Positions 3,021 to 16,986 of a stretch of DNA of 26,668 nt are shown here, one piece after another. Below the pieces are notes generated by a model. It was given only the letters and a program-made list of their open reading frames with translations. It did no database searches and was not told the DNA's origin. Positions within the stretch are counted from its first letter, which is position 1, and each line of letters starts with the position of its first letter. The position numbers were made by a program, and so were the translations under genes. The DNA is from a virus. The stretch is from the IMG/VR virus record IMGVR_UViG_3300025767_001189, positions 1 through 26,668 of that record; one strand, given 5' to 3'.

Positions 3021-3308
3021 TTACTTCTTCTTTTTCGGCAACAGATGTTTGTAATCCGGATAATAACCAAACGGAGGGTCTGATACCTCTTTAGGAGTAT
3101 TTTCCGGAGTACTACTTTCTAGCCACATCGAGGAATACTTGAATAGTACTTGTCCTTCAATAATAACACATCGCATGAGGTGGTCCTGGCGGTCATAAAT
3201 GCCGTCTGGTACTTTCAGCTTATAATGATCCTTAATACTGCGGACTGATGTTAACTCATCACAACGTGCTACGCCATATAACTGCTTTGGATTAGTTACG
3301 ATTGACAT
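3021..3308 (-). CDS. Hypothetical protein
   Basis: A 95-aa protein not recognised. It has no signal peptide or membrane segment. The N-terminal half carries charged, soluble-looking sequence ending around a short beta-rich part (MRCVIIEGQVLFKY, 45-58), and it ends in a proline-rich tail with a run of lysines (PKKKK). The start overlaps the folE 3' end by 17 bases, with an AAGGA-type site inside folE, so translation is probably coupled to folE. Tight packing between folE and the downstream gene supports that it is real. Confidence 0.65.
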   Translation of the reverse strand: MSIVTNPKQLYGVARCDELTSVRSIKDHYKLKVPDGIYDRQDHLMRCVIIEGQVLFKYSSMWLESSTPENTPKEVSDPPFGYYPDYKHLLPKKKK

Positions 3309-3963
3309 TTGCCATTACTTCCTTACGCAATTCGCTATTGGCCGCACCGAACTGTCCTAGGCAACAGGCAGTAACAGTAGTACTATTAGTGTCCTTAATA
3401 CCTCGCTGAGAAACACATGTGTGTCCAGCATCGACAACAACCATTACGTCTTGAGAGTCAGTAATGAATGCAATTGCATGAGCAATTTGTTGCGTCAAAC
3501 GTTCCTGTACCTGAGGACGCTGCGCAAAGTATTGAGTAATACGGTTCAGCTTAGATAGTCCTAGTACTTTCTTTCCAGGAATGTATGCAATGTGAGCCTT
3601 TCCGATAATAGGACGAAGATGATGCTCACAATCAGAATACAACGTGATATTCTTTTCAAGCACAAACTCATCACCATGACAGAATTTATTCTCGACAGTC
3701 GTACACTTAGGAAAGGTATCGTAGCGAAGACCAGAAAAGATCTCATCGACATACATCTTAGCAACACGGATAGGGGTTTCTTCCAACGAATCGTCGGTCA
3801 AATCAAGACCCAATGTCTTCAACATTTCTTCAGTGAGCGAGGCGATCTTGTGGATCTTCTCTTCACGTTCAGCTTTAACCAATTCGGTAATCGGTGTGTT
3901 GATACCAAGAGTATCGAGATACTTATTTACGGCACGGCCCAATTCAGGGTTAGATTTACTCAT
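3292..3963 (-). CDS. folE: GTP cyclohydrolase I
   Basis: A 223-aa type I GTP cyclohydrolase, which converts GTP to 7,8-dihydroneopterin triphosphate, the first step of both folate and 7-deazaguanine synthesis. The zinc and active-site motif CEHHLRP (112-118, C112 and H115) and HTCVSQRGIK (181-190, C183) are intact, as is LGLSKLNRI (134-142). Length is close to the family norm. The ATG at 3963 has an AAGGA site seven bases upstream. With queD, queE and queC also in this window, its job is most likely preQ0 supply rather than folate. A hairpin-rich leader precedes it. Confidence 0.96.
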   Translation of the reverse strand: MSKSNPELGRAVNKYLDTLGINTPITELVKAEREEKIHKIASLTEEMLKTLGLDLTDDSLEETPIRVAKMYVDEIFSGLRYDTFPKCTTVENKFCHGDEFVLEKNITLYSDCEHHLRPIIGKAHIAYIPGKKVLGLSKLNRITQYFAQRPQVQERLTQQIAHAIAFITDSQDVMVVVDAGHTCVSQRGIKDTNSTTVTACCLGQFGAANSELRKEVMANVNRN

Positions 3964-4595: not shown

Positions 4596-4770
4596 CGGTT
4601 AGCTCCTTTACAATTTCTTCCGAACGCTTGTCGACGAATTCTTCAACAATACCTAGACCTTCTGCCAAAATTAACAGAATACCTGCCCACCAAAAGTTAC
4701 CGCCCATCAGGGTAGCGCCGGCGGCAAAACGAATACCGCTTTTAAACATTGACACGTTGAAATGATTCAT
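4585..4770 (-). CDS. Small membrane protein
   Basis: A 61-aa protein with one probable transmembrane segment at about residues 13-36 (hydrophobic, glycine- and alanine-rich, with a WW pair) followed by a charged C-terminal tail of about 20 residues. I do not recognise a family. The start overlaps the radical SAM gene by ATGA, and the end overlaps dsbA by 11 bases, which supports it being translated. Confidence 0.65.
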   Translation of the reverse strand: MNHFNVSMFKSGIRFAAGATLMGGNFWWAGILLILAEGLGIVEEFVDKRSEEIVKELTDVK

Positions 4771-5585
4771 AATTTACTTTCGTTAATTTTCTTCATGATT
4801 TGTAATACCTGCTCTTCAGGTTTGTTCACCATTCTTTCAGTACACACTTTACAATAGTCCTCATATTTAAACAACTCATAGTTCATCATTTTGTCAACAT
4901 TAGATTGGGTAATGTCAAACTGACGCGAACCATTGATTACCTTCTTACTACAATGTCTGATCTTTTGGATCTCAAAGTCAACAACTGGTACAGAGGGATA
5001 TGCAGCGCATATTCGTCTCTCTAGCTCAGGCGCTTGTTGTAATACAGCATACGTGGGTGATCGCGAATTGTATTCCTTGAGGATAGTGTTTGCGTGATAT
5101 ACATCAAGCTGGTGTGTCTTGATGTACTCTTGATAACCCGGAGTTTTAATTATCAGGTTATAGTTATTATAGTCGTTTTCTTCAAAAAAGTCAAACTGTC
5201 CTAGTTTCTCAATTCGATCGCCATAGAAGTCCAATACCAGATGCTCAACATACAATACCTCGGGATCTTCCAATATAGATGGGTACCTCTTTCTAACAAA
5301 TGAGTTAGAGAGAACTGTTGGAACAAAATTCTCATACTTCTTTATCTGATCAATTACTTCGGTGAGATTTTTAATCAACCCGGGTTCCCCACCCAAGAGA
5401 TTAATCCGCATCTTGTGGTCTTTAAACATCTCTAGAGTGTTATTCAAGAAATCCATATCGACATCAAGATTACGCATCTCAAGAGTCCAGGCCGTACAAT
5501 AGTGACACGACTTATTGCACGACTTGGACAAGTAGAAGTCAATAGGATGATACCCACTCTGGTTAACTTGATCAAGAGATTTCAT
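4767..5585 (-). CDS. Radical SAM protein
   Basis: A 272-aa radical SAM enzyme. CNKSCHYC (23-30) gives the CX3CX2C ligands of the [4Fe-4S] cluster, and LLGGEPG (63-69) is the SAM-binding GGEP motif. Further cysteines near the C-terminus (C193, C212, C245, C248, the last two as CKVC) suggest an auxiliary cluster or SPASM-like tail, though shorter than the classical one. Substrate unknown. It is coupled by ATGA to the DegT-type aminotransferase upstream and lies in the queD-queE transcript, so it may act on the same product or on a sugar nucleotide. It is not a second QueE: the QueE N-terminal signature is missing. Confidence 0.85.
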   Translation of the reverse strand: MKSLDQVNQSGYHPIDFYLSKSCNKSCHYCTAWTLEMRNLDVDMDFLNNTLEMFKDHKMRINLLGGEPGLIKNLTEVIDQIKKYENFVPTVLSNSFVRKRYPSILEDPEVLYVEHLVLDFYGDRIEKLGQFDFFEENDYNNYNLIIKTPGYQEYIKTHQLDVYHANTILKEYNSRSPTYAVLQQAPELERRICAAYPSVPVVDFEIQKIRHCSKKVINGSRQFDITQSNVDKMMNYELFKYEDYCKVCTERMVNKPEEQVLQIMKKINESKL

Positions 5586-6658
5586 AGCATTGATTTTATA
5601 GTAGTGGCAACTTGATTAACTTCTGAGTCAGTCATCCACGCATGAATAGGCAATGACAATACTGTATCTGCGGCTATCAAAGATGATACACACAAATCGG
5701 TTCTATGATCAATTGTGTCAAACATAGGGTGCAGTGACATGGGCCTGTCGTAGTGAACTGATGCATTCAAGGCGCGCCTGATAAAATCTCGTGTAAATTT
5801 AGTGCCAAGTCGAATGACATACTTATGATAGTTGTGATTGAGTCCGCTGCTCACATTCTGTACGATAGCTGGTACGGAGGCTAGTTTACTGTCATACATC
5901 ATTGCTATCTGCTGTCGTCTTAGTTGCCATTGATTAATCCGTTGTAATCTGTAACGAATTACCTCAGCGTTCAGTTGATACATTCTGGAGTTTCGACCTA
6001 ACATATCAAATGTTGAGTCAGACAATCCGTGGTTAGTCATACTCTTAACTCGAGCTGCTAGATCATCATCATCAGTAACCAAAGCGCCCCCACCACTAAT
6101 TCCAGCAATTACTTTATTGGAATTAAAACTTATAGCACTGCACTTACCAATGCTTCCAGCTCGTATAGAGTTTAAACTCGATCCCAACGACTGTGCAGCA
6201 TCTTCGATCAACAGTATACCAGACTCAGTACAAAATTGCTGGACGTCGGTTATGTCAACCATGTTACCAAATAAATGTGTGTACATCAACGCTTTGGTAT
6301 TAGGTGAAATCATCTTCTTAATGCTGGCCAGGGATATGTGATATGAGTCAAGATCAATATCACAAAACACAGGCCGGGCGCCCGAAAGAGAAATGCTTGT
6401 GGCCGAAGCTATGAATGAAAAATTAGTAACCAGTACTTCATCACCCGCTCCAATATTATTTGCAACTAAAGACAAGGTCAAAGCATCAGTAGCGCTGTTA
6501 CACACAACTGCATGCTTACGACCTACAATCGCTGCTAGTTCTGTCTGAAGGCCAGAAACACTATCCCCACCTTGCTTAGACATTACATCAGCAAAGATGC
6601 TGTTGTAGTCGTTAGCATTAAACAGATATTCGCGTTCCCAACCATCATAGGATACCAT
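5582..6658 (-). CDS. DegT/DnrJ/EryC1-type PLP aminotransferase
   Basis: A 358-aa member of the sugar aminotransferase family, which transfers an amino group to keto-sugar nucleotides using PLP. Visible family features are VCNSATDAL (52-60), EDAAQS (152-157, PLP-ring Asp D153) and SFNSNKVIAGISGGG (177-191), with K182 as the Schiff-base lysine. The chosen ATG is two bases after the queE stop and has GGAAAG upstream; a longer GTG start at 6685 would overlap queE. It precedes the radical SAM gene (ATGA overlap). A UDP-sugar dehydrogenase and an epimerase are also in the window. Substrate unknown; a role in glycan or nucleobase decoration is inference. Confidence 0.87.
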   Translation of the reverse strand: MVSYDGWEREYLFNANDYNSIFADVMSKQGGDSVSGLQTELAAIVGRKHAVVCNSATDALTLSLVANNIGAGDEVLVTNFSFIASATSISLSGARPVFCDIDLDSYHISLASIKKMISPNTKALMYTHLFGNMVDITDVQQFCTESGILLIEDAAQSLGSSLNSIRAGSIGKCSAISFNSNKVIAGISGGGALVTDDDDLAARVKSMTNHGLSDSTFDMLGRNSRMYQLNAEVIRYRLQRINQWQLRRQQIAMMYDSKLASVPAIVQNVSSGLNHNYHKYVIRLGTKFTRDFIRRALNASVHYDRPMSLHPMFDTIDHRTDLCVSSLIAADTVLSLPIHAWMTDSEVNQVATTIKSML

Positions 6659-6660
6659 GA

Positions 6661-7545
6661 TTACTTTCCGATAATATTTTCCCACAGGTAGGCATGCACT
6701 CGAGCGGACACTCGATATCCACGTCGCAGAGCCTCATCAGCAATCACATGAGCAGGAATATGACCACCAACCTCACCTTTCTGACCCTCTACAGTACCAC
6801 CCAAAGGCATAATCCATACAGGATAGGTCACACCCGCTCGACGATATAGCTGAACAACTTCTTCAATCTCATTCCAAGCATCATCAGCTCCATTGCAGAC
6901 AAATTTAAGCTGTCCTTGATGAGATAGATCATGGTAGTCGGCAACAATCTCAGGTAGGATAGCTTTCTCACGCTTCTCGCCAGCGACCGTCCACAACTTG
7001 GGACTAACCGAGAAGAACAACTCAGTTGAAAAGTTGTTAGCCCAGTACGCCACAAACTCATCTGTTAATGGCTGAGTTCCATTCGTCTCAAAGGTAACAC
7101 TAGGGATTGTCTGTTTATTAGCGTCATAATAATTCAACACTTCGACAACTGCACGCTGAGCGTGCTTCATCATAGGCTCTCCGCCAGTAAAACACATATG
7201 AATGTTATCATTAAAATTGCGATTGGGAATAGCATCAAGAATTTTCTCAGCAATTTCACTAGCGGTCTCCTTATGCTGCAAGTGCTTAAACTTAGCAGAC
7301 CAAGAGTACGAAGAGTCGCATCCTCGCTCAAACACAGGCAGGTCTTCAATCTTCTTGTAGTCTTCTACTTTGATATTTTGATAAGGTAGGACATAGGTAT
7401 CGGGATTAGTCGGATCCGATTGACCAAATCCATCACACTGTAAATTGCACAAGAAGAACCGAAGCCATGCAGTCGGCTCGCCAGTGTACTTACCTTCACC
7501 TTGCATAGAGTAGAAAATCTCACTATACGCATACTGCTTACTCAT
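6661..7545 (-). CDS. queE: 7-carboxy-7-deazaguanine synthase (radical SAM)
   Basis: A 294-aa QueE, which rearranges 6-carboxytetrahydropterin into 7-carboxy-7-deazaguanine. The N-terminus SEIFYSMQGEGKYTG (8-22) is the QueE signature, with FTGGEP at 119-124 and FETNGT following. The cluster cysteines are unusual: C33 and C37 form CX3C, but the third, in CDSSYSW (76-82), comes after a 38-residue stretch. Aligned with the CX3CX2CD pattern of Bacillus-type QueE, this is an insertion of about 36 residues inside the cluster loop. The gene is longer than usual QueE (about 210-245 aa). It is coupled by ATGA to the small gene upstream. Confidence 0.92.
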   Translation of the reverse strand: MSKQYAYSEIFYSMQGEGKYTGEPTAWLRFFLCNLQCDGFGQSDPTNPDTYVLPYQNIKVEDYKKIEDLPVFERGCDSSYSWSAKFKHLQHKETASEIAEKILDAIPNRNFNDNIHMCFTGGEPMMKHAQRAVVEVLNYYDANKQTIPSVTFETNGTQPLTDEFVAYWANNFSTELFFSVSPKLWTVAGEKREKAILPEIVADYHDLSHQGQLKFVCNGADDAWNEIEEVVQLYRRAGVTYPVWIMPLGGTVEGQKGEVGGHIPAHVIADEALRRGYRVSARVHAYLWENIIGK

Positions 7546-7724
7546 TTTACATCCTTTTTAACAATCGTCCATGTACCATCTTTGTTGTCGATCCATGTCA
7601 TCACATCGCCGACTTTCCATCCCGCAGCTTCCATCAATTCATCGGGAAACTCAACAGCTAGGTCACCTTCAAATTCAATGATCGGTACTGTCCATGATGT
7701 TTGGATATTTGTTGTGTCGCTCAT
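7542..7724 (-). CDS. Small hypothetical protein, AbrB-like hint
   Basis: A 60-aa protein between queD and queE, overlapping both by ATGA. The core FPDELMEAAGWKVGDVMTW (26-44) followed by GTWTIVKK resembles the LPxxxxxxxGxxxGDxl plus short beta strand layout of swapped-hairpin AbrB/MazE DNA-binding domains. The fold is a guess from this pattern. A regulatory or accessory role in the queD-queE operon is possible; no catalytic motif is visible. Confidence 0.7.
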   Translation of the reverse strand: MSDTTNIQTSWTVPIIEFEGDLAVEFPDELMEAAGWKVGDVMTWIDNKDGTWTIVKKDVK

Positions 7725-8221
7725 GCAAACAAGTCCTCATTCCACTCGCGATGGCCTTCACGATAAGCCATATTAGCTTGAGTCTCGCGTACCTCTACTC
7801 GGTAGCACCACAGACGCTCAGCCTCTGCAGGTCCCCACATATCAGGAATGTACACTCCGTTGACATAATTGTACAGCTGATCAGACAGACCTTCACAACC
7901 CAATTTAGGAAGGATAGTTAGTTTAGCAATACCGCGGCGTTGCATCTCCATGTACAGCTCTAATTCAGGATCGTCTTCAGCAACGAGTAACGTATGGTCA
8001 AACTGACTTTCCAATACATTCTTCAATTCTTTTAGACCACCATAGTCGGCAGCCCAGTTACGGACATCTAGGTCATCGGTACCAAAGTAAAACTTCATCG
8101 AGAAGCTATAGCCGTGGATTGTGTTACAGTGACTATCAGCCCGCCACTGTCGGTATGCGCATGGGAATGCGTCATGATACTCTTTAGTACTTGTGTACTT
8201 GTATACTCTTGGTTCGTTCAT
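7721..8221 (-). CDS. queD: 6-carboxy-5,6,7,8-tetrahydropterin synthase
   Basis: A 166-aa QueD that converts dihydroneopterin triphosphate to 6-carboxytetrahydropterin. SHCNTIHGYSF (30-40) holds the catalytic Cys (C32) and the HGY/HGH zinc motif (H36), and QFDHTLL (73-79) is the conserved DH motif. EVRET near residue 147 supplies the substrate-binding Glu. It is longer than bacterial QueD (about 120 aa), with an insertion around 80-125. The ATG at 8221 follows a GAGG site that can be paired in a leader hairpin. It heads the queD, 60-aa, queE, DegT, radical SAM operon. Confidence 0.9.
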   Translation of the reverse strand: MNEPRVYKYTSTKEYHDAFPCAYRQWRADSHCNTIHGYSFSMKFYFGTDDLDVRNWAADYGGLKELKNVLESQFDHTLLVAEDDPELELYMEMQRRGIAKLTILPKLGCEGLSDQLYNYVNGVYIPDMWGPAEAERLWCYRVEVRETQANMAYREGHREWNEDLFA

Positions 8222-8228
8222 ATAAGTT

Positions 8229-8283
8229 CCTCTTTAGAGGGGGGCAGAATGTTTTGAGAGGGTTGATCCCCGGTTAGGCCTCT
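8229..8283 (-). promoter_or_regulatory. Possible preQ1-type riboswitch in the queD leader
   Basis: The 75-base leader before queD can form, on the minus strand, a 5-bp hairpin AGAGG/CCTCT (8279-8283 with 8257-8261). Its loop begins CCTAACC and contains GGGG (8268-8271). An A-rich linker CAAAACATTCTG then leads to CCCCCC (8239-8244), which can pair with the loop GGGG as an H-type pseudoknot. Overlapping that C-run, CCTC (8237-8240) can instead pair with the ribosome binding site GAGG (8229-8232). A hairpin with a tail pseudoknot and an A-rich linker is the architecture of preQ1-I riboswitches, and the gene is in that pathway. Not tested against a covariance model. Confidence 0.4.
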
Positions 8284-8296
8284 AGCTAGCATTATA

Positions 8297-8518
8297 TTAG
8301 ATATCCAACTTAAAGTCAACAATCTTGACACCCAGCGCCCAGTTCTCTGCAGCATCTTCAACATACTGGAGACTGTAATCTGGAAAGCGCTCTTCCCAAA
8401 TCATCGCATCACCAACATAATAGTTGATCTTGAATCGCTCGTCCCTAGAGTCAAGAACAATCTCACATCGATTGTTGATATCATCATCACTATAGTAAAC
8501 TGAAATAACTTTATCCAT
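8297..8518 (-). CDS. Hypothetical protein
   Basis: A 73-aa acidic protein, not recognised. It starts MDKVISVYYSDDD and ends VKIVDFKLDI; no membrane segment. The ATG at 8518 has a GGAG site nine bases upstream and overlaps the thyX stop by eight bases; a longer TTG start at 8533 has no site and was rejected. It is the last gene before the structured queD leader. Confidence 0.65.
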   Translation of the reverse strand: MDKVISVYYSDDDINNRCEIVLDSRDERFKINYYVGDAMIWEERFPDYSLQYVEDAAENWALGVKIVDFKLDI

Positions 8519-16329: not shown

Positions 16330-16986
16330 TTAAAACCCATAATCATAATTACCAAAGGCCTGATACCTATCTTTGCACCATCTGCATGTCTTACATGGCA
16401 TTCCCATATGGTTGTCACTAATACATGAGTTGGTTATTAGCGATAGGTCTTCAATACCCAATGCTTTATACTGAGCGGCAATAAAGTCTTTACCTACATC
16501 CTTCCACGGAAACCCCTCGCCGTGAGTCTGGAACACTTCTTGTTCAATTGCTCTGGTACGAGCTTCGTGGGATTGGATAGTAACATAGTCACTAAGATTT
16601 TGGCCTGATATTAGCCAATCAATAGGCACATCGTCGCATAGCTGAATAATTGCATATAAGCTGGCAATAATCTTACTATCATTACCTCGTTTGTCTCCGT
16701 CGTACATTCGTAGAGGATGAATCGTTACATCGGGGAATGATTTGGACACATAGTTAACAACATCTGTTGCGTTGATGCGTGTATCCAGTTTCTTTAGGTT
16801 TAAATCGAACAGATGATATGGATGAATCTCTGTACCGTACTGCTTGCGATCGCTAATCTCTTTAGCTAGACAATAAAGTGCCAGAGCCGAGTCTAGGCCG
16901 CCAGAAGTAGATACCGCTGCGTGTTGCAGGTCGGTAGGAATGTTCTGAAAATAATCAATGGAGGTTATGCCGTCAGTCAATATCAT
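16330..16986 (-). CDS. queC: 7-cyano-7-deazaguanine synthase
   Basis: A 218-aa QueC, which uses ATP and ammonia to convert 7-carboxy-7-deazaguanine to preQ0. The PP-loop STSGGLDSA (26-34) is near the N-terminus, and the zinc cysteines C188, C198, C201 and C204 (pattern CX9CX2CX2C, ending in CKDRYQAFG) match QueC. It lies alone between the terminator of the hsp20 cassette and gp43, about 8 kb from queD and queE, so the pathway genes are dispersed among replication genes. No glutaminase domain or other fusion is present. Confidence 0.9.
   Translation of the reverse strand: MILTDGITSIDYFQNIPTDLQHAAVSTSGGLDSALALYCLAKEISDRKQYGTEIHPYHLFDLNLKKLDTRINATDVVNYVSKSFPDVTIHPLRMYDGDKRGNDSKIIASLYAIIQLCDDVPIDWLISGQNLSDYVTIQSHEARTRAIEQEVFQTHGEGFPWKDVGKDFIAAQYKALGIEDLSLITNSCISDNHMGMPCKTCRWCKDRYQAFGNYDYGF

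Follow-up and report, generated by a model that had tools for sequence, protein, structure and literature searches.

Modification of their DNA with 7-deazaguanines lets phages evade restriction (PMC6884629). The virus record IMGVR_UViG_3300025767_001189, whose 26,668 nucleotides we call the window, carries a queD-like gene with a short leader, which raises the question of whether this leader is a regulatory RNA and, if so, to what it responds. To our knowledge, how phages regulate the 7-deazaguanine pathway is not known. The analysis below indicates that the queD leader is almost certainly a real cis-regulatory RNA switch. This small knotted RNA can exchange its pairing for one with the ribosome-binding site, and very probably represents an on/off switch of a new kind.

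Pathway genes and layout of the queD leader

The queD gene is predicted to encode an enzyme that is thought to help make a modified guanine. The following genes of the window belong to, or resemble genes of, the pathway:

7721..8221, minus strand: queD-like gene, 6-carboxytetrahydropterin synthase family, PTPS fold (Pfam PF01242, E 8e-14)
6661..7545, minus strand: queE-like radical SAM gene, two genes downstream of queD (phrog_2076, E 3.5e-54)
3292..3963, minus strand: folE, GTP cyclohydrolase I (PF01227, E 1.4e-59)
16330..16986, minus strand: queC-like ATPase, a weak match (PF06508, 24.4 bits, cut-off 22)

Against the NCBIfam QueD model the queD-like protein scores 32 bits, below the cut-off of 89. 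Phage QueDs, including that of the window (7721-8221), read HCxxxHGY, compared with CxxxHGH in the bacterial enzyme. Elsewhere in the window, a radical SAM protein (4767-5585) has the prokaryotic viperin family as its best NCBIfam match (41.8 bits, cut-off 180), and its gene lies directly downstream, on the same strand, of a DegT-type aminotransferase gene (5582-6685). A 292-aa protein (1078-1956) belongs to a PHROG of unknown function (phrog_19058); no homologue was found in 23 contigs that carry the element described below, and no solved relative.

The leader lies on the minus strand between the stop of a 78-aa ORF at 8297 and the queD start at 8221, and reads AGAGG-CCUAACC-GGGG-A-UCAAC-CCUCU-CAAAACAUUCUGC-CCCCC-UCUAAA-GAGG-AACUUAU-AUG. 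The first-pass annotation had described here a hairpin, a GGGG/C-run pairing, an A-rich linker (CAAAACATTCTGC) and a stem over the Shine-Dalgarno (SD) sequence, and all of these are present on the minus strand. The element itself was thus rightly recognized, with its extent drawn too wide (8222-8296); the core occupies 8283-8229. Its parts are:

8279..8283, minus strand: 5' strand of P1, AGAGG (sequence; P1 compensation across the family)
8272..8278, minus strand: loop L1, CCUAACC, starting with the family HCU (CU at L1 positions 2-3 in 218/223 leaders)
8268..8271, minus strand: 5' strand of P2, GGGG (P2 covariation; AGGGA/CCCCU in the siblings L224, L291 and L300)
8262..8266, minus strand: L2, UCAAC, consensus UCAHC (UCA in 221/223 and C in 223/223 queD leaders found by pattern only)
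8257..8261, minus strand: 3' strand of P1, CCUCU, in DNA CCTCT (sequence; P1 compensation across the family)
8244..8256, minus strand: L3, CAAAACAUUCUGC, consensus NNANANAYUCUGC (constant length of 13 nt; C after CUG in 217/223, most of the other L3 letters having been demanded by the search pattern)
8239..8243, minus strand: 3' strand of P2, CCCCC (8242-8239 pair with GGGG 8271-8268; register directly after YUCUGC)
8237..8240, minus strand: anti-SD strand CCUC of the alternative stem P3 (same CCUC/GAGG arrangement in L224, L291 and L300)
8229..8232, minus strand: Shine-Dalgarno GAGG, 3' strand of P3, closing a UAAA loop (ViennaRNA unpaired probability 0.03-0.04)

The A that follows GGGG (A8267) is the unpaired A.C position of what is a five-pair P2 in the family, and the last C of L2 (C8262) immediately precedes the P1 3' strand, which is the position of the specificity base in preQ1-I riboswitches. 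P3 in the window (CCTC 8240-8237 with GAGG 8232-8229) covers the queD Shine-Dalgarno with 4 bp only. In the family register it shares C8240-C8239 with P2, so the claim that the two pairings are mutually exclusive holds. The run of six Cs permits a slipped P2 that avoids this clash but sacrifices the conserved C of UCUGC; such slippage is conceivable because P2 of the window has only four G-C pairs and one A.C. Folded alone, the window leader was no better than its shuffles (z 0.38, -0.10, 0.30), and single-sequence folding therefore gives no support to the structure.

A family of queD leaders in uncultivated phages

We retrieved the 80 closest QueD homologues in IMG/VR and compared their leaders. 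The common form was AGCGG-YCU-n-GGCG-UCAUUC-CCGCU-UUACAAAYUCUGC-CGCC-...-SD-AUG, and a descriptor search found the element in 65 of the 80. Since this first descriptor demanded HCU and UCA, the conservation of these letters was rechecked on sites chosen without them, in two gene-blind scans of IMG/VR with a pattern of P1 and the linker only. A QueD homologue followed 223 of the 241 sites found; the others were mostly at contig ends or chance-like. Among the 223 leaders, CU followed the first L1 base in 218, UCA was present in L2 in 221, and a C stood directly before the P1 3' strand in every one. The element thus precedes queD in hundreds of uncultivated phage contigs, and the QueDs behind it are 29-100% identical to that of the window.

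Of 30 long phage contigs searched with a model, the 28 whose queD leader fits the family each contain one strong copy (35-58 bits), one has a degenerate form ahead of queD (L131), and one has none. The weak extra matches that were inspected in phage contigs lay in coding sequence, antisense within genes, or in no element-like context, and in the sampled phages the element is confined to queD leaders. The degenerate form (L131, L452:950-975) precedes another queD; it keeps P1, UCAAC and YUCUGG, and has lost HCU and the usual P2. The element can be lost or can move, since two close QueD relatives (L032 and L076), whose upstream gene resembles the 78-aa ORF of the window, do not have it.

In the 23 element-bearing contigs we found FolE in 21, a strong QueE match in 21, QueF in 2 and QueC weakly in some. 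These contigs are fragments, from which the absence of a gene cannot be proved; with QueF this rare, most element-bearing phages seem to stop short of preQ1.

Outside uncultivated phages, BLAST of the leader against isolate phages returned nothing or chance matches, the element was absent at 11 queD loci of cultured phages (including ACP17, X1, Motura, Mendera and BUCT-ZZ01), and a genome contig scan with the AGCGG form gave chance matches only. Scores stayed below 27 bits throughout about 990 bacterial genomes from three phyla, compared with 30-58 for the phage elements under the same model, in a scan of limited sensitivity that scored 15-21 candidates per genome. The element is absent from Rfam, and a search of open-access journal papers yielded no description of a queD-linked phage RNA.

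Covariation of the pseudoknot

Both helices change in a compensated manner. P1 occurs as AGAGG/CCTCT, AGTGG/CCACT, AGCGG/CCGCT and ACCGG/CCGGT. P2 has a single register across the family, its 5' strand ending before UCAHC and its 3' strand starting after YUCUGC. We scored it in 70 sequences from which the window and the AGCGG group had been left out. Each of the five pairs varies on both sides, pairing is kept in 91.4% of P2 cells compared with 59.8% after shuffling, and no slid register scores above 0.197. The covariation of the loop-tail GGGG/CCCC pairing in related phages, on which the first-pass annotation had staked its proposal, survived (score 0.895 against 0.263 for shuffled alignments, with 0 of 500 shuffles reaching it), and 98 sequences with the window included gave the same result.

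A covariance model built from the 70 sequences, without the window, matches the window element with 39.7 bits (E=1e-11), its sole match in the 26.7 kb at E up to 5. Three relatives (L224, L291 and L300), whose QueDs are 38-39% identical to that of the window, have the same GGG/CCC P2 and the same CCUC/GAGG anti-SD pairing. Judged by comparison of sequences, the queD leader is a member of a conserved family of H-type pseudoknots, and for this predicted fold the five-pair covariation of P2, together with the match of the held-out model, is decisive.

A competing helix over the ribosome-binding site

The 3' strand of P2 can also form a helix of at least 6 bp with the SD or start codon. Such a helix is possible in 88% of 219 unique leaders, compared with 10% of leaders with shuffled letters and 54% when the heads were swapped between leaders; the frequent starts GAUGGC and GAUGAC thus account for part of the pairing with the start codon. 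A helix of at least 6 bp to the SD or start codon was available to the P2 3' strand in 83%, compared with 0-15% for other leader segments. There are 40 distinct P3 helices, for example CCUAUG/CAUAGG, which covers the SD in the AGCGG group, AAGUCAUC/GAUGACUU, which covers the start codon in L086, CUCUAUU/AAUAGAG and CCAUAAC/GUUAUGG. Since this complementarity is family-wide, mutually exclusive pairing is a family-wide design.

Folding with ViennaRNA without pseudoknots left the SD or start codon paired in 5 of 5 leaders. When the P2 strands were held aside, the site mostly opened; the SD of the window (AGAGG) then tends to pair with the P1 3' strand, a pairing that is not general in the family. 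P2 and the SD are separated by a median of 15 nt, a distance at which the pseudoknot would not have to obstruct the ribosome. The pseudoknot pairing and the complementarity of its P2 3' strand to the ribosome site are both observed, and their arrangement is the anatomy predicted for a translational switch with the pseudoknot as the permissive state. The marks of such a switch on queD, namely a pseudoknot, an A-rich linker, an anti-SD stem and competition between the two pairings, are as the first reading had them, though it named neither fold as the ON state.

In 49 of 62 AGCGG-type leaders (L001-L080; for example L048:1046-1120), the stretch of L3, P2 and the P3 loop coincides with a near-consensus sigma-70 promoter, and transcripts from it would bypass the switch.

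Comparison with known RNA systems

Like a translational riboswitch, the leader has a conserved aptamer-like fold before a pathway gene, and one strand of this fold can also pair with the ribosome-binding site. The closest known RNA is the preQ1-I riboswitch (RF00522, types I-III; PMC11625349, PMC10622847), also an H-type pseudoknot of P1 and a loop-tail P2, with a 5-bp P1, an A-rich L3 and translational control of a 7-deazaguanine gene (predicted here). In preQ1-I the specificity C is the base just before the P1 3' strand (PMC11625349), as is the invariant C of the queD element.

The two differ in the letters around this C. The preQ1-I L1 carries a conserved UU/UUC, whose uridine(s) contact N9 of the ligand, whereas the L1 of the queD element starts with HCU, its first base being A in 104, U in 63 and C in 26 of 193 leaders (C in the window). 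In place of a conserved A of L3 beside P2, L3 ends in YUCUGC (last C in 192/193), with an invariant UCUGC between the A-run and P2. Unlike P2 of preQ1-I, which masks the SD itself or promotes a terminator, P2 of the queD element pairs a dedicated strand that would block the ribosome-binding site in the other state (ON logic).

None of the Rfam preQ1 models (RF00522, RF01054, RF02680) reached its gathering threshold in the window or 30 relatives, and at E up to 10 nothing relevant from Rfam was found in stretches of 81-501 nt from the window, L048, L077 and L086. Because it does not match the curated model and has neither a conserved L1 uridine nor a conserved A at the end of L3, the element is not filed under preQ1-I, and the likeness to Bacillus preQ1-I that the first-pass annotation saw does not extend to membership. 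Its interpretation holds for the competing-fold switch on queD and not for this assignment. Membership of preQ1-II (RF01054) or preQ1-III (RF02680) was rejected for lack of a model match; these are likewise pseudoknots upstream of queuosine genes, and differ by their HLout folds, extra hairpins and an SD taken into the structure (PMC11625349). In short, the element would by analogy act as a riboswitch does, and what it has in common with preQ1-I is the topology, P1 and the C next to P1.

Structured leaders are known in other phages, among them the glutamine riboswitch of OM43 phage Melnitz (PMC9004378) and the manA, wcaG and PhotoRC-II motifs of cyanophages (PMC2864571), each with another structure and another gene. 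Their hosts are aquatic, often T4-like phages, and none of these RNAs is tied to queD or 7-deazaguanine.

Proposed mechanism and alternatives

The reading that we favour, and consider reasonably probable as a whole, is a cis-acting translational switch with two exclusive folds. In the first fold P1 and P2 would form the small H-type pseudoknot, and the unpaired letters that stay fixed in it (HCU, UCAHC and ANANAYUCUGC) have the look of a pocket for a ligand. The second fold would release the P2 3' strand from the pseudoknot to pair with the SD or start codon (P3), blocking translation. A small molecule that stabilizes the pseudoknot would then turn queD ON. From the anatomy, the pseudoknot is quite likely the ON state, and the predicted ligand is probably a small metabolite. 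Our best guess is a base from the 7-deazaguanine pathway with a Watson-Crick edge like that of guanine (preQ0, guanine or preQ1), which may be read by the invariant C beside P1; the main alternative is the substrate, dihydroneopterin triphosphate. A pathway whose product switches its own synthesis ON would be an odd form of feedback, which counts against the ON reading.

The pseudoknot might instead be a translational operator bound by QueD or another phage protein, which we consider unlikely. T-even phages do have pseudoknot operators, the T4 gene 32 leader being one: an H-type pseudoknot in an mRNA leader that controls translation when bound by gp32, in autoregulation of a single-strand binding protein rather than in control of queD. 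The ORF translations of the window show a T4-like gene content (polymerase, clamp loader and recombination genes), and the element sits only at queD. The fixed letters, however, barely vary while QueD drops to 29% identity, and a preQ1-like pocket geometry, with its invariant C beside P1, is expected of an RNA that binds a base.

A divergent fourth type of preQ1-I riboswitch, which would bind preQ1 and repress queD, appears improbable. It would account for the H-type topology at a gene of the same pathway, for the C adjoining the P1 3' strand on its 5' side, for the A-rich L3 and for a P1 (AGAGG/CCTCT) identical to that of the Bacillus element. Besides the absence of a gathering match to RF00522, which at E up to 10 gave only a 9.4-bit fragment on the strand opposite P1/P2 and outside the pseudoknot core, this explanation has against it the unconserved L1 uridine and last L3 adenine, the presence of QueF, needed for preQ1, in only 2 of 23 contigs, and an alternative pairing that argues for ON, not OFF.

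We give still less credence to a ligand-independent folding device, a co-transcriptional timer or thermosensor in which the pseudoknot forms first and decays to the hairpin that blocks the ribosome-binding site. P1 and P2 are indeed transcribed before this site, and P3 was the stable state predicted without pseudoknots in all five leaders folded, but such a device leaves the fixed unpaired HCU, UCAHC and ANANAYUCUGC across diverse phages unexplained. That the conserved stretch is a DNA promoter and not an RNA is very improbable, and was dropped for the family: TTTACA-N17-TATAAT overlaps P2/P3 in 49 of 62 AGCGG-type leaders, but none of the 227 leaders of the AGAGG and AGTGG types, the window included, carries it, and a promoter is not expected to show base-pair covariation.

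Implications

Returning to the metabolite-responsive switch, we tentatively propose a new riboswitch class, so far phage-only, in which a miniature H-type pseudoknot would sense a guanine-like base and turn queD ON; this is a plausible reading that may well need revision. With a conserved core of less than 50 nt, the element is easy to synthesize and test. If true, this riboswitch-like RNA, attached to queD across hundreds of phages, would represent a mainly viral switch class, which is rare, and since it resembles preQ1-I but with the logic reversed, ideas on how small pseudoknot aptamers evolve could be put to the test. If the sensor of a guanine-like base is real, the virus would meter its own 7-deazaguanine synthesis by RNA.
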